A stretch of 64,000 nt of DNA from a virus. The stretch covers positions 30,543 to 94,542 of the IMG/VR virus record IMGVR_UViG_3300028569_000020. One strand, given 5' to 3'. The position numbers and the translations under genes were made by a program. Below the pieces are notes generated by a model, which was given only the letters and a program-made list of their open reading frames with translations, was not told where the DNA came from and ran no database searches. Of this stretch, positions 52,614 to 57,059 are shown in pieces. The first letter of the stretch is position 1. The number at the start of each line of letters is the position of its first letter.

Positions 52614-54389
52614 ATGGCTCAACAGAATAAACACCTAGAGCACTTAGAAGACGAGTTAATCAATTTTGGTTATAGCGGATATGTAGCTTCTAAGGACCTC
52701 ATACAGAATTTCATTGACGAGCTTGGTGGCCGTCCTACTGGTCGTGTGACCGTTACCACCAAGTGGGATGGCGCCCCTGCTATTGTTTGTGGTATTGATC
52801 CAGAATCCAAACAGTTTTTTGTAGGCACCAAGTCAGTATTTAATAAGAAAGAACCGAAGGTAAACTTCACTGACGAAGATATTGAAAAAAATCATGGAGA
52901 GATACCTGACCTTGCTAAGAAGCTTAAGCAATGTTTAAAGTATTTTCCAGAGCTTAAAATAAAAGGAGTGATACAGGGAGACCTTCTTTTTACTGATGAA
53001 GATGTAGCAAGTAAAACTATTGATGGGGAGCGTTACCATACTGCTACGCCAAACACGCTAACCTATGCTTGGCCTGCTGATAGCAAGTTAGGTAAGGCAG
53101 TAAATTCTGCTAAGATTGGAGCAGTGTTTCATACTTATTATAGTGGAGCTGGTCCTATCAATAATATGAATGCTGGATTTGGCGTGAGTCAGTTAAACCT
53201 GAAATCCACTCGTCATGTGTTTTTAGCATCTGCTACGATGGATAACATCAGTGCTAACTCTGGATTAACTCCTGCTGAAGAGCGCACCTTAAAATCTGTT
53301 ATCTCTGTAGGAAATCGTAATGTTGATACTGCTAAACCTTTTCTTGAATTGGTAGCACAGGAAGCAACTAAGCAGTTTACGATAGGATATACGATGAAGC
53401 GGTTTACTAACAGCTACATCAAAGAAGGAAAGAAGATTAATAATGTTAATCGTTTTATGGAGGGATTTGAAAAGGCATTTAAAAAATCTCTCGTTGAAAA
53501 AGTAGATGATTTAAAGTCTGAAAAATCTAAGAATGAATACCGAGAAAAGCTAGCGAATGGTCTTCAATTACTTGGAGCAAATCAGCGGTCGTTTAAGGCA
53601 TTCATTGTTATCTACAATTCATTTACTAACGCTAAAAATCTTATTAACAATAAACTTGCTGGTCTGAGTGACACTAAAGTATTTCTGCGTAGTGGTGATA
53701 CTTTTGTAGTTACCAAACCAGAAGGATTTGTGGCGATTGTTGACGGTCAAGCAATTAAAATTGTTGATCGCTTGGAATTTTCTCGTGCTAACTTCACGCT
53801 GGAGAAGTCTTGGAAACCTCCTACTACTTCTGGTGCTAAGATTGCTGCGTTTACTTTTGGTCGTTTTAATCCTCCTACGACGGGACATGAGTTATTGATA
53901 AATAAAGTCAAGGAGTTTGCCGCTGGGAATGACTACTTTGTTTTTCCTAGTCATACTACTGACAAGAAAGGTAAGAATCCTTTGACCGCAGAGCAAAAAG
54001 TATATCTTATGAAAGAGATGTTTCCTTCTCATAAGGATAACATCATTTTAGATGAAGCTATTCGTGACGCTATCAAAGCTCTCAAGTGGCTTGAAGATAA
54101 AGGATATACCGATGCTATCTTTGTAGTTGGTTCTGATCGTGTGACCGCATTTCAATTTATCAAACAATATAATGGTAAAGATTACAATATGAATACTGTT
54201 GAGATTAGAAGTGCTGGTGAGCGTGATCCAGATGCCGATGATGTATCTGGTATGTCTGCAAGCAAGATGAGAAAGGCAATCGTTGAAGCAGATATGGTAA
54301 CTTTTGAGAGTGGATTGTCAAGCAGTGTTAAAAATAATAGTGAATTTAAGACGATGTATTATCAAGCAGTGTTGGGGGGAATGTCCTAA
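52614..54389 (+). CDS. Fusion of ligase-like nucleotidyltransferase and NMNAT-like nucleotidyltransferase (DUF6267-like N-terminus)
   Basis: 591 residues, two enzymes in one chain. Residues about 1-400 resemble the covalent nucleotidyltransferase fold of ATP ligases and capping enzymes: K50-W-D-G53 as motif I (TTKWDGAPAIV), VIQGDLLF (119-126) as motif III, PEGFVAIVDG (369-378) as IV and IKIVDRLEF (381-389) as V. Residues about 408-591 are a HIGH-type transferase: FGRFNPPTTGH (415-425), VVGSDRV and SASKMRKA (548-555), as in NMN adenylyltransferases. Substrates are unknown. It leads a co-transcribed cassette to 57059. Confidence 0.75.
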   Translation: MAQQNKHLEHLEDELINFGYSGYVASKDLIQNFIDELGGRPTGRVTVTTKWDGAPAIVCGIDPESKQFFVGTKSVFNKKEPKVNFTDEDIEKNHGEIPDLAKKLKQCLKYFPELKIKGVIQGDLLFTDEDVASKTIDGERYHTATPNTLTYAWPADSKLGKAVNSAKIGAVFHTYYSGAGPINNMNAGFGVSQLNLKSTRHVFLASATMDNISANSGLTPAEERTLKSVISVGNRNVDTAKPFLELVAQEATKQFTIGYTMKRFTNSYIKEGKKINNVNRFMEGFEKAFKKSLVEKVDDLKSEKSKNEYREKLANGLQLLGANQRSFKAFIVIYNSFTNAKNLINNKLAGLSDTKVFLRSGDTFVVTKPEGFVAIVDGQAIKIVDRLEFSRANFTLEKSWKPPTTSGAKIAAFTFGRFNPPTTGHELLINKVKEFAAGNDYFVFPSHTTDKKGKNPLTAEQKVYLMKEMFPSHKDNIILDEAIRDAIKALKWLEDKGYTDAIFVVGSDRVTAFQFIKQYNGKDYNMNTVEIRSAGERDPDADDVSGMSASKMRKAIVEADMVTFESGLSSSVKNNSEFKTMYYQAVLGGMS

Positions 54390-56161
54390 TGTCACAATTT
54401 AATTTAAGAAAAGAAACAAGAGATGTTTCTAATTTTATAGATATGGATATTGTAGCATTAAAGTTTAGGCGTATTCATGGAATGATTCGTGTAGCTGCTG
54501 CTAATGCATTCAATAGTCATTATGGAGAAGTAAAAGGATTTGAATATGAAATTGAAGGTGGTGACGGTATAACAGATTCCTCACCTATATTAGAAATTAA
54601 TAAAAAATTTGAAGGTGGCAGATCAACATCTTTGAAATATAAAATTACTTGTGATAATGGAATTCCAGAGTATTGTGATTTGTATTTTAGAACGCCGAGA
54701 GCAGATTTCATTAATCATATGATTTCCTTTATCAATAAAAGAAATGATTTGAAGAATGCAGTTGGTATTACAAACGTGGAATTGAAGACAGAAGATGGGG
54801 GCAAAAATCCTACTTTGTTTATTAAAATGTTACACAGCTATCCTGGATTGGATAAGAAAGGGAAAAAAGTTACCAAGTATTCAACTATCAATTTAAACTT
54901 TTCTCTTAAGTATGCTGGGAAAGATAATAATGCTAAGGCACTTGCCACACTTAAACCAAAGGATGTTGAACCTAAAATTGTTGATGTTTGGTTGACTCCA
55001 GAATTGTTGTATGATAATATAATATCTTATGTTGATGGCAATAAATTTCCATCACAAAGCAATTCATTAAAACAATCTTATAAGAATATTATTATTGATG
55101 CGTATACTAATAAATCTTTGAAAGATAAAGTTGGTATAGCGGCAGATTTATCTTCAGAATTTTTTGAAGTATTATCTGCATTGAAATTAAGTATGCTATT
55201 GAAAGCAAATGTCACAGAATTAAAACAAACACTTGGATTGTCAGATGATGAGACAGTCAAATCAATAGAAGTTAAAATACCAGCAGCAGCAAACGAAGCA
55301 TTGATAGATTATTTTGTTGCAGTGAATGGTAACAAGGAGCATCCATTGCGGATAAGCGTCAAATCAAAAGTGCGGGGATCTTCAACTTCTACAGTTAAAT
55401 TTACAACCGCTTTTGTAAATGAAAGAGAAGTATTACAATGGTTTAATAATATTAAATCAACAGTAACAAAAAATAAACAACTTGGTCAATATACCATTGC
55501 TTCATCTGCTTTGAATTATGATAAAAAGTATTCTGGTAGATTAACAATGTATCCTATCAAAGGATTGCTTCGTCTTTTAACTGGACCTAAATCATCTACA
55601 GTAAGACAAGATTTAAACAGAGTTTTAGATTTGAAAGGATTTACTATTTCTGATTTTATTGATTTACTTAAAAAGACAGATAAAAAAATGGGCACACTAA
55701 AAGTAAATTACGAACCATTTGATAATATTTTTTTAAAAGATTTAGATTTACTAACTAAAGTTAAAACATTACTGGCGCTTAACATTTATGATGAAGGGAG
55801 CAAGAAAAAAAAATTGATTGAATCAATATCATTATCGCAGAAAGAAGCTGCTAAAAAAAATAATGGCAAGTATCCTTTCGCTGTAAATAATTTAGCTTTA
55901 CTATGCGAAAGAGTGCTGGTAGAAACTTCAAAGAAAGACGGACAAACTAAATTAAATTTTTATAAAATGTTTTATGACCAAGTGCTTACAAAAAATCAAG
56001 TAGCATATGCTATGACAAGTAGAGACACTAAAGGTGACGTAGTAAAATTAGAATACTCATTTGTTAGTGCAGTTGACTTTGGTAAATATAAAAACTGGAT
56101 TGCACTAAGAAGTAAAAATTATGGCAACAATATGCAAGACGCACTAGGAATGGCAGTATGA
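54389..56161 (+). CDS. Large uncharacterised protein, possible nuclease fold
   Basis: 590 residues, not recognised. Begins MSQFNLRKETRDVSNFIDMD. It contains FFEVLSALKLS (258-268), then LIDYFVAVNG (305-314) and RISVKSKVRGSS (321-332). An E...D...(S)xK spacing like this recalls PD-(D/E)xK nucleases with the central acid replaced, but it is weak evidence. No membrane segment; Lys/Asn-rich; AT-rich. It overlaps the fusion gene by TAATG and the next gene by ATGA, so the three are produced together. Could also be a virion-packaged protein. Confidence 0.55.
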   Translation: MSQFNLRKETRDVSNFIDMDIVALKFRRIHGMIRVAAANAFNSHYGEVKGFEYEIEGGDGITDSSPILEINKKFEGGRSTSLKYKITCDNGIPEYCDLYFRTPRADFINHMISFINKRNDLKNAVGITNVELKTEDGGKNPTLFIKMLHSYPGLDKKGKKVTKYSTINLNFSLKYAGKDNNAKALATLKPKDVEPKIVDVWLTPELLYDNIISYVDGNKFPSQSNSLKQSYKNIIIDAYTNKSLKDKVGIAADLSSEFFEVLSALKLSMLLKANVTELKQTLGLSDDETVKSIEVKIPAAANEALIDYFVAVNGNKEHPLRISVKSKVRGSSTSTVKFTTAFVNEREVLQWFNNIKSTVTKNKQLGQYTIASSALNYDKKYSGRLTMYPIKGLLRLLTGPKSSTVRQDLNRVLDLKGFTISDFIDLLKKTDKKMGTLKVNYEPFDNIFLKDLDLLTKVKTLLALNIYDEGSKKKKLIESISLSQKEAAKKNNGKYPFAVNNLALLCERVLVETSKKDGQTKLNFYKMFYDQVLTKNQVAYAMTSRDTKGDVVKLEYSFVSAVDFGKYKNWIALRSKNYGNNMQDALGMAV

Positions 56162-56442
56162 AATCACTCAAAGAATTATTACAAATATCTAAACAGAAAG
56201 CATACATGCTCGGCAATATGTTTGCTGAAGGCGATATTATTAAAAACACAAACGGACAAGTAGGAAAGATTCATAGACGTGGAGTTAACTATGTTATTGC
56301 TGTCACTGAAGAAGGCGAGATGTTTAGAACTTGGGTGAAGGATATTAAAGAACATTGTGGGTGTGAAGAAAAAAAAGAAACTACAGCACAAGATACAATC
56401 AAGACATTTATAAATAAGAATAAAAGGCAGCCTAAAAAATGA
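56158..56442 (+). CDS. Small basic protein with KOW/SH3-like strand pair
   Basis: 94 residues. Central segment MFAEGDIIKNTNGQVGKIHR followed by RGVNYVIAVTEEGEMFRTWV has the beta pattern of a small barrel with a conserved G-x-V-G-K-I turn. Then HCGCEEKKE with two Cys, and a Lys-rich tail. A late-octamer match TATAAATA (56409-56416) lies in its 3' end before the next gene. Recurs in marine T4-like phages as a hypothetical; function unknown. Confidence 0.6.
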   Translation: MKSLKELLQISKQKAYMLGNMFAEGDIIKNTNGQVGKIHRRGVNYVIAVTEEGEMFRTWVKDIKEHCGCEEKKETTAQDTIKTFINKNKRQPKK

Positions 56443-57059
56443 AACCTCTTCACCACGATGATTACTCCAAAACATTAATGGAGAGAGCTATTGCTAATAT
56501 GACTGACATGTGGTCTTATGGCATAAACGAAGACGATAAAAAATGTTGCAATAAAACTGGTGCTGGTAGTTCATGCCCGATGCATGGAGATGCAGATTGC
56601 AATTCTTCTAAAAAAAATAGGAAAGAAGAATTTGAAATTTTAGAATATCATGAAATTGAAGTTGATGGGGAAACCATTATTATTGAAAAAACTAAAATGG
56701 ATGGCGTTGATGATAACGGATCTAAGACATGCTGGAAAGGATATAAGAAGCAAGGCACCAAAAGTAAAGGTGGTAAAGAAGTTAATAATTGTGTGAAATC
56801 TGGATACGAACCAGAAGGAGATACGATTGAAGAAAAGAAAGATATGCCTGGTGGTCAAGAGAAGATTGATGCTAACAAAAATGGTAAGGTAGACGCTCAT
56901 GACTTTGCAATTCTTCGCAATAAAAGAAGCAAAAAAACAGTAAAGGAAATGTGGGAGCTTGCTGTAGAAGCAAAAGCACAAATTGAAGTGATGCCCGAGT
57001 TAGATGATAAAGATCCAGCTAACGTAAAGAAGAAAGAAAAGAAAGAAAAAAGTTGTTAA
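56439..57059 (+). CDS. Cysteine-rich protein with EF-hand-like loop
   Basis: 206 residues. N-terminal cluster CCNKTGAGSSCPMHGDADC (five Cys, one His) suggests a metal site. Next is TCWKGYKKQGTKSKGGKEVN followed by NC, a motif I know from several cyanophage proteins. Residues DANKNGKVDAHDF fit an EF-hand or dockerin calcium loop (D-x-N-x-N-G-x-V-x3-D). The C-terminus is Lys/Glu-rich. Last gene of the 52.6-57.1 kb cassette. Function unknown; calcium binding is inferred from the loop. Confidence 0.65.
   Translation: MKPLHHDDYSKTLMERAIANMTDMWSYGINEDDKKCCNKTGAGSSCPMHGDADCNSSKKNRKEEFEILEYHEIEVDGETIIIEKTKMDGVDDNGSKTCWKGYKKQGTKSKGGKEVNNCVKSGYEPEGDTIEEKKDMPGGQEKIDANKNGKVDAHDFAILRNKRSKKTVKEMWELAVEAKAQIEVMPELDDKDPANVKKKEKKEKSC

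Follow-up and report, generated by a model that had tools for sequence, protein, structure and literature searches.

A cyanophage protein that joins DUF6267, a probable ligase-like domain, to an NMNAT/PPAT-superfamily adenylyltransferase, and capsid-targeting-like sequences among its relatives

The window analysed here is a stretch of 64,000 nucleotides, positions 30543-94542 of a viral record that is itself a 94.5-kb fragment. On its plus strand lies an open reading frame for a protein of 591 amino acids, with an ATG start and exactly where a preliminary description of this DNA had placed it. That description had pointed to KWDG, GRFNPPTTGH and SASKMRKA motifs within this one frame, and all three are present, at residues 50-53, 416-425 and 548-555. 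Pfam divides the protein into DUF6267 (residues 5-398, E 8e-109) and CTP_transf_like (residues 414-553, E 2.4e-7), and the PHROGs agree with this split, assigning the C-terminal half (CTT in the following) to a cytidyltransferase. In the AlphaFold2 model of the whole protein, built from a 91-row alignment, both halves are confidently folded (pLDDT 91.2) and are separated by a disordered linker, residues 395-404. The fusion gene, its two domains and the genes that follow are:

52614..54389, plus strand: 591-aa fusion of DUF6267 and an NMNAT/PPAT-superfamily adenylyltransferase, CTT (ORF, Pfam, AlphaFold2)
52626..53807, plus strand: DUF6267 domain, residues 5-398, a predicted ligase-like nucleotidyltransferase core with an N-terminal HxxHxED helix (Pfam PF19782; AlphaFold2)
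53841..54359, plus strand: NMNAT/PPAT-superfamily adenylyltransferase domain (CTT), residues 410-582 (Pfam PF01467; PHROG; Foldseek; profile against PDB)
54389..56161, plus strand: 590-aa ORF directly downstream of the fusion, a conserved neighbour of the fused gene in the S-PM2 group; present in 33 loci
56158..56442, plus strand: 94-aa ORF like the C-terminal domain of CTT proteins of other phages (PHROG 395 positions 216-296, E 4e-12)
56439..57059, plus strand: 206-aa ORF resembling S-CREM2 ORF160 and S-SZBM1_139, with a common GYK..GTK.KGGKEV..C segment
57379..57981, plus strand: 200-aa 'head protein' (PHROG 613), resembling the virion protein S-SZBM1_136

The order uvsX-gp41-mazG in the window is that of Synechococcus phage S-PM2 (Kyanoviridae), and the fusion protein has 81% identity with the one encoded in the S-PM2 record LN828717; the window derives from an S-PM2-like Kyanoviridae phage. 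In the older S-PM2 record (NC_006820/AJ630128) the gene is split by a frameshift, which in NC_006820.1 gives two ORFs, p141 and p142, at 103025-104804. This split, together with the two separate genes of most cyanophages, could be taken to mean that the fusion is an artefact of annotation, frameshift or assembly. The frame is nevertheless intact in LN828717 and in about 35 complete and independent environmental ORFs, and a fusion is found separately in freshwater loci, so that the probability left to an artefact is negligible. The fusion ORF is real and intact.

The covalent nucleotidyltransferase superfamily is characterised by motifs in the order I, III, IIIa, IV and V, and the motifs seen in DUF6267 follow the same order. 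Their conservation was judged on an alignment of 57 diverse DUF6267 sequences (A4), and the features of this half are:

52632..52652, plus strand: N-terminal motif H7-L-E-H10-L-E12-D13, invariant or near-invariant in A4
52761..52772, plus strand: motif I, K50-W-D-G, with the candidate nucleotide-accepting lysine; K50, D52 and G53 invariant, between strands 46-50 and 56-61
52974..52982, plus strand: motif III-like Q121-G-D123, with Asp where ligases have Glu; invariant in A4, in strand 119-127
53118..53141, plus strand: motif IIIa-like strand (168-177), G169...H173-T-x-Y176; G169, H173 and Y176 invariant
53247..53660, plus strand: alpha-helical insertion, residues 212-349, between motifs IIIa and IV (AlphaFold2 secondary structure)
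53721..53732, plus strand: motif IV, E370-G-F-V; E370, G371 and V373 invariant, a stretch that hhalign pairs with motif IV-V of T4 Rnl1
53754..53771, plus strand: motif V-like I-K382-I-V-D-R386, first Lys kept and second replaced; K382 invariant, R386 above 90%

Thirty columns of the alignment are invariant, among them K50, D52, G53, D123, E370, G371 and K382, and further K73, S74, Q121, G122, H173 and V373, in addition to the N-terminal H7/H10 motif. Because of this invariance, and because the fused ORF is conserved, a chance pattern of motifs can be ruled out. Modelled alone, the DUF6267 half is again predicted with confidence (pLDDT 89.9, pTM 0.86), with K50 at the end of a strand, as part of the K-x-D/H-G pattern of motif I, and motif IV conforms to the E-G-h-V/I pattern. 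The preliminary description had listed motifs I, III, IV and V of these enzymes, the last three corresponding to Q121-G-D123, E370-G-F-V and K382-I-V-D-R; motifs I and IV are indeed canonical, whereas motif III has Asp in place of Glu, a conservative substitution (Q-A-D at the equivalent position of syn9 gp183), and motif V retains only its first lysine; to call the set complete would overstate it. The helical insertion, which has invariant residues of its own (N266 and K341), is shorter in DUF6267 proteins of the syn9, P-SSM2 and S-CREM2 type, which are 295-303 aa long.

With regard to the fold, a Foldseek comparison of the DUF6267 half with the PDB gave nothing significant, the best match (E 0.4) being an unrelated non-ligase. 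Ligases and capping enzymes account for nine of the top 50 matches (E 0.96-3.2, none significant), which represent five enzymes: the vaccinia capping enzyme, T4 Rnl2, TbREL1, the Naegleria Rnl and T4 DNA ligase. These poor E-values are probably explained by the helical bundle (212-349), which attracts coiled coils. In the BFVD structure library, viral RNA ligases follow the DUF6267 relatives at ranks 20, 26, 28, 29 and 48. Furthermore, hhalign pairs the DUF6267 stretch EGFVAI-VDGQAIKI with EGYVAVMKDGSHFKI of T4 Rnl1 over 20 columns (score 27.5, P 0.011), the highest score among 17 control families being 24.5; comparison with the Rnl2 and DNA ligase families gave no match, and phmmer and profile searches of the PDB returned no ligase and nothing else of relevance. 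Since several lines are suggestive and each falls short of proof alone, we consider it likely, rather than settled, that DUF6267 is a divergent RNA-ligase-like covalent nucleotidyltransferase. The preliminary reading of this half as ligase-like, for which a comparison of both predicted halves with known folds had been proposed, thus stands on the invariant motif pattern and on repeated ligase and capping-enzyme matches in two structure libraries, none significant singly; the N-terminal model is confident, with its ligase matches at E > 0.9, while the C-terminal half was placed by Foldseek among PPAT and NaMNAT enzymes. No paper naming the DUF6267 family was found in the literature searched.

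The divergence of motifs III and V, the large insertion with its own invariant N266 and K341 and the lack of a significant ligase match would also suit a DUF6267 that AMPylates a protein, or one that is catalytically dead and serves the NMNAT-like enzyme as a binding or structural partner. The strict invariance of K50, D52, G53, D123, E370 and K382 would be unusual in a dead enzyme, and we regard this pair of options as quite unlikely.

The C-terminal half can be placed more firmly. Its best Foldseek matches are phosphopantetheine (PPAT) and nicotinate-nucleotide (NaMNAT) adenylyltransferases (E 1.6e-4 to 9e-4), and a profile of 36 CTT domains, on which invariance was also judged, finds in the PDB first the Methanocaldococcus NMNAT MJ0541 (E 7.7e-4), then PPAT (0.009) and NadR (0.011). 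The (H/T)xGH and (S/T)SxxxR-type motifs of the NMNAT/PPAT enzymes are present on an alpha/beta fold:

53859..53888, plus strand: GRFNPPTTGH nucleotide-binding motif (HxGH/TxGH type), residues 416-425; R417, P420, G424 and H425 invariant in the 36 CTT domains
54129..54143, plus strand: GSDRV, an NMNAT-like GxDx motif; G506 and D508 invariant
54255..54278, plus strand: SASKMRKA, an ISSTxxR-type motif, residues 548-555; S548 and R553 invariant

NCBIfam models for NMNAT are touched by CTT (2e-5), yet the scores lie far under the equivalog cut-offs (24 against 341.15 for TIGR01526 and 21.2 against 112.45 for TIGR00482). Pfam, Foldseek, the PDB profile and NCBIfam agree on the superfamily, which bears out the preliminary description of this half as NMNAT-like, and membership of CTT in the NMNAT/PPAT superfamily is practically certain. 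As for the reaction, a predicted NMNAT activity is slightly favoured.

In the collected loci, 43 of the 147 DUF6267 ORFs are fused to CTT and 40 adjoin it, and most of the others either have a long CTT protein 0.6-2.6 kb downstream of them or sit at the end of a contig; in P-SSM2 and S-CREM2 the two genes are apart. The fusion is an exception within a very widespread module, whose DUF6267 and CTT genes are elsewhere usually adjacent and separate. On a maximum-likelihood tree the fused state changes three times, each change being forced by well-supported branches, which implies that fusion happened independently at least twice, or once with subsequent losses; fusions are also found, separately, in the freshwater loci L038-L040. 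A Pol-beta-type nucleotidyltransferase (NTP_transf_2) takes the place of DUF6267 as the fusion partner of CTT in a marine lineage (L076:8431-10800 and about 30 more loci), with an adenylate kinase between that fusion and DUF6267. Phage adenylate kinases located between the DUF6267 and CTT genes were observed at L077:7483-8043, L108:6636-7253 and L105:4815-5399 (PF00406, E 3e-40 for L077). Both the kinase and the Pol-beta-type nucleotidyltransferase occur in the operons of the module.

The 590-aa protein encoded directly downstream of the fusion has no confident match in Pfam, PHROG or NCBIfam. The domain type of the following 94-aa protein also forms the end of the S-CREM2 CTT. Proteins of this kind (window 56158-56442, S-PM2 NC_006820 p144, PHROG 4808) carry the label 'ribonucleotide reductase alpha subunit/NrdB', an annotation that is very probably wrong for such small proteins resembling a CTT C-terminus. 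S-CREM2 ORF160 and S-SZBM1_139, the relatives of the 206-aa protein, are both listed in virion proteomes. Large proteins flank DUF6267 in other loci as well as in the window (54389-56161): L048:4595-5938, L150:6881-7966 (Melnitz 15) and L240:32459-33793 (S-SCSM1 ORF90, a virion protein). Several of them start with a capsid-targeting-like tag and contain a short 'SVKK/SLKK' segment that recalls, by eye, restriction-nuclease folds; the idea that the neighbours of nuclease-like appearance (syn9 gp182, the L048 upstream ORF, Melnitz 15 and the window's 54389 ORF) form a single family was considered and rejected, as hhalign lent it no support. Additionally, long CTT proteins with several extra C-terminal modules were seen at L146:9676-11844 (DLP6 AAY80_068), L150:9592-11544 and L134:2536-5148, one such module, GGxKKFYVYVK..RKSFRARH, occurring in L134 and Melnitz 18.

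Many CTT proteins and some DUF6267 proteins have N-termini (MKSFAEFLKEEA, MSKFTDFLTEAT, MKNFTSFITEAL) that resemble MKTYQEFIAEA, the signal of the T4 internal protein IPIII, of which the first ten residues are enough for head targeting, residues 4 and 7 being the main ones for targeting and 8 and 10 for processing (PMC9026906). A strict pattern for this tag is matched by 16 of 94 DUF6267 and 15 of 48 CTT proteins, by seven of 177 direct neighbours and by two of 470 other, distant genes; compared with the latter, Fisher's test gives 1e-11 for DUF6267 and 4e-15 for CTT, both p-values being too small owing to the relatedness of the sequences. The pattern was composed after the sequences had been viewed, and three patterns were tried, all of which gave enrichment, so the independent comparison with virion proteomes carries more weight. 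NMNAT-like proteins have already been reported from the virions of the cyanophages S-CBWM1, S-SZBM1, S-SCSM1 and S-CREM2 (PMC9602691, PMC9146016, PMC10665884). In all three cases checked, the CTT protein reported from the virion bears the tag: S-CREM2 ORF154 (MKNFSSFLTEA), S-SCSM1 ORF91 (MKSFLQFLKEA) and S-SZBM1_140 (MRFRQFIIEA). The stand-alone Pol-beta-type nucleotidyltransferase encoded near CTT in S-CREM2, ORF156 (L145:10513-11226), is likewise part of the virion proteome. DUF6267 itself is missing from the two full virion lists checked, those of S-CREM2 and S-SZBM1, and the DUF6267 proteins of these two phages have no tag (MNKATKPLTHIEHPED and MAKNTHLEHL, respectively), while that of DLP6 is tagged.

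Tag enrichment and the tagged CTT proteins of virions together point to a module that is mainly a head-delivered adenylyl-transfer module, and delivery of the CTT relatives in the head is very likely. The tag is present on the freshwater fusions L038 and L040, and absent from the S-PM2 fusion and from the window protein, which suggests that the version of the S-PM2 group is probably produced inside the cell or packaged by other means; head delivery of the window protein itself seems doubtful. The adenylate kinases of L077, L108 and L105 also begin with a capsid-targeting-like sequence (MKSFKDYIFEALG), which suggests a head-delivered adenylate kinase.

At the level of whole genomes, models of the ATP DNA ligase (PF01068), Rnl1 (PF09511), Rnl2-type (PF09414) and NAD DNA ligase (PF01653) families have no match in S-PM2, S-CREM2, syn9, P-SSM2 or Melnitz, all of which have DUF6267, whereas T4 has its three ligases and no DUF6267. 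The product annotated as 'tRNA ligase' in P-SSM2 (T4-GC 194) was rejected as a ligase, with no RNA or DNA ligase model matching anywhere in that record; by eye it resembles an aminoacyl-tRNA-synthetase-type protein. One could accordingly propose that DUF6267 supplies cyanophages with the replicative DNA ligase that they lack, in the place of T4 gp30, with the NMNAT-like domain as an incidental partner or a source of NAD+, and in the window the fusion gene does come after gp43, uvsX, gp41 and mazG. A simple replacement of this kind loses ground with DLP6 and Vibrio 2.275.O, whose genomes encode a gp30-type ligase as well as DUF6267; moreover, in P-SSM2 and S-CREM2 the DUF6267 gene is set apart from those for replication, the DLP6 protein carries the capsid-targeting tag, and the weak fold matches are mostly to RNA ligases. 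We consider a gp30 replacement improbable.

NadV was found in DLP6 and Vibrio 2.275.O and is absent from the complete records of S-PM2, S-CREM2, syn9, P-SSM2 and Melnitz, the first four of these being cyanophages that thus lack NadV as well as every standard ligase tested. This bears on an NAD+ supply or counter-defence role like that of NARP2, in which the putative NMNAT would restore NAD+ taken by host NADases and DUF6267 would be an auxiliary with another chemistry. The closest relatives of CTT are NMNATs, a fast response would fit delivery in the head, and NAD+ supply is proposed in the cyanophage virion papers; however, the module contains no source of NMN, and according to a survey NadM is always accompanied by NadV in phages (PMC9503650). 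Either these CTT proteins fell outside what the survey counts as NadM, or their function is another one. NARP2-type salvage is lowered by the lack of NadV in the cyanophages tested, and we hold it to be unlikely.

The explanation that we favour, tentatively and at somewhat less than even confidence, is that the fusion protein unites two adenylyl-transfer enzymes of a phage module with a role at the stage of entry, an NAD+-making C-terminal half and a DUF6267 half acting on RNA ends. CTT would most likely join ATP and NMN, or a related phosphate ester, into NAD+ or a related dinucleotide, with release of PPi. With ATP or NAD+ as the donor, DUF6267 would form lysyl-AMP at K50 and hand the AMP on to the end of a nucleic acid. 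The substrate would most likely be RNA, for instance a tRNA that host defence nucleases have cut. In the family as a whole, the module may work early, at about the time when the genome enters the cell: the NMNAT-like protein is tagged, as are DUF6267 or adenylate kinase in certain lineages, and would be carried in the head and enter along with the DNA. A predicted part of DUF6267 in RNA end chemistry is likewise a tentative proposal, slightly short of an even chance, and sealing of RNA ends is suggested by fold resemblance and context. A coupled supply of cofactor by the fused halves is plausible, given how persistently the two are linked and that they were joined independently at least twice (or once, with later losses). 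A bolder version, which we consider very improbable, would have a closed NAD+ cycle on one polypeptide, where DUF6267 as an NAD+-dependent ligase of RNA, or of nucleic acids more generally, frees NMN from which CTT at once remakes NAD+ with ATP, while relatives pack part of this set in the head together with adenylate kinase for AMP recycling and the Pol-beta-type enzyme for mending RNA ends, allowing repair before phage gene expression.

At least 470 phage records encode DUF6267, as do more than 500 environmental contigs, and most of these are of T4-like cyanophages. If it is of the ligase type, those cyanophages would have no other ligase candidate, and the steady pairing of DUF6267 with an NMNAT-like gene would be explained. 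The capsid-targeting sequence offers a simple reason for the recurrence of NMNAT-like proteins in cyanophage virions, and could allow the enzymes that marine T4-like phages deliver with their DNA to be predicted from sequence. What this analysis adds is the interpretation of DUF6267 as ligase-like, together with the capsid-targeting sequence, the adenylate-kinase and Pol-beta companions and the recurrence of the fusion.

In comparison with known systems, the N-terminal half of the window protein is a full-length member of the DUF6267 family (Pfam PF19782; PHROG 455; cyanophage T4-GC 71), for which a ligase-like fold and active site are proposed here for the first time. With T4 Rnl1, Rnl2 and the covalent nucleotidyltransferases, which recur among its weak fold matches, it has in common K-x-D-G, the acidic residue of motif III, EG-h-V, the motif V lysine and a mainly beta core; it differs from them in the Asp of motif III, in K-h-V-D-R instead of K-x-K, in the HxxHxED N-terminal helix, in an inserted helical region of about 135 residues that separates motifs IIIa and IV and in giving no significant profile match. 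CTT shares with NMNAT (NadM/NadR/NadD) and PPAT the GRFxPxxxGH, GxDx and S-x-S-x-x-R motifs and the fold, but its partner is DUF6267 or a Pol-beta-type nucleotidyltransferase instead of a Nudix domain or a kinase. An NMNAT-type enzyme is also what the module has in common with the phage NARP2 and NadV-NadM salvage pathways, NadV being absent from the five genomes named above. The virion NMNAT-like proteins of S-CREM2, S-SCSM1 and S-SZBM1, the three checked, belong to the same CTT family, from which the window protein stands apart in being fused and untagged; the consulted parts of the papers describing them (PMC9602691, PMC9146016, PMC10665884) make no mention of the DUF6267 linkage or of a targeting sequence. 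Finally, the T4 internal proteins IPI, IPII, IPIII and Alt have a short N-terminal capsid-targeting sequence with an hxE cleavage site and are delivered from the head (PMC9026906). Relatives of the window protein are tagged likewise, although the S-PM2 group is without the tag, and in contrast to the T4 proteins the cargo here is a set of nucleotide-transfer enzymes.
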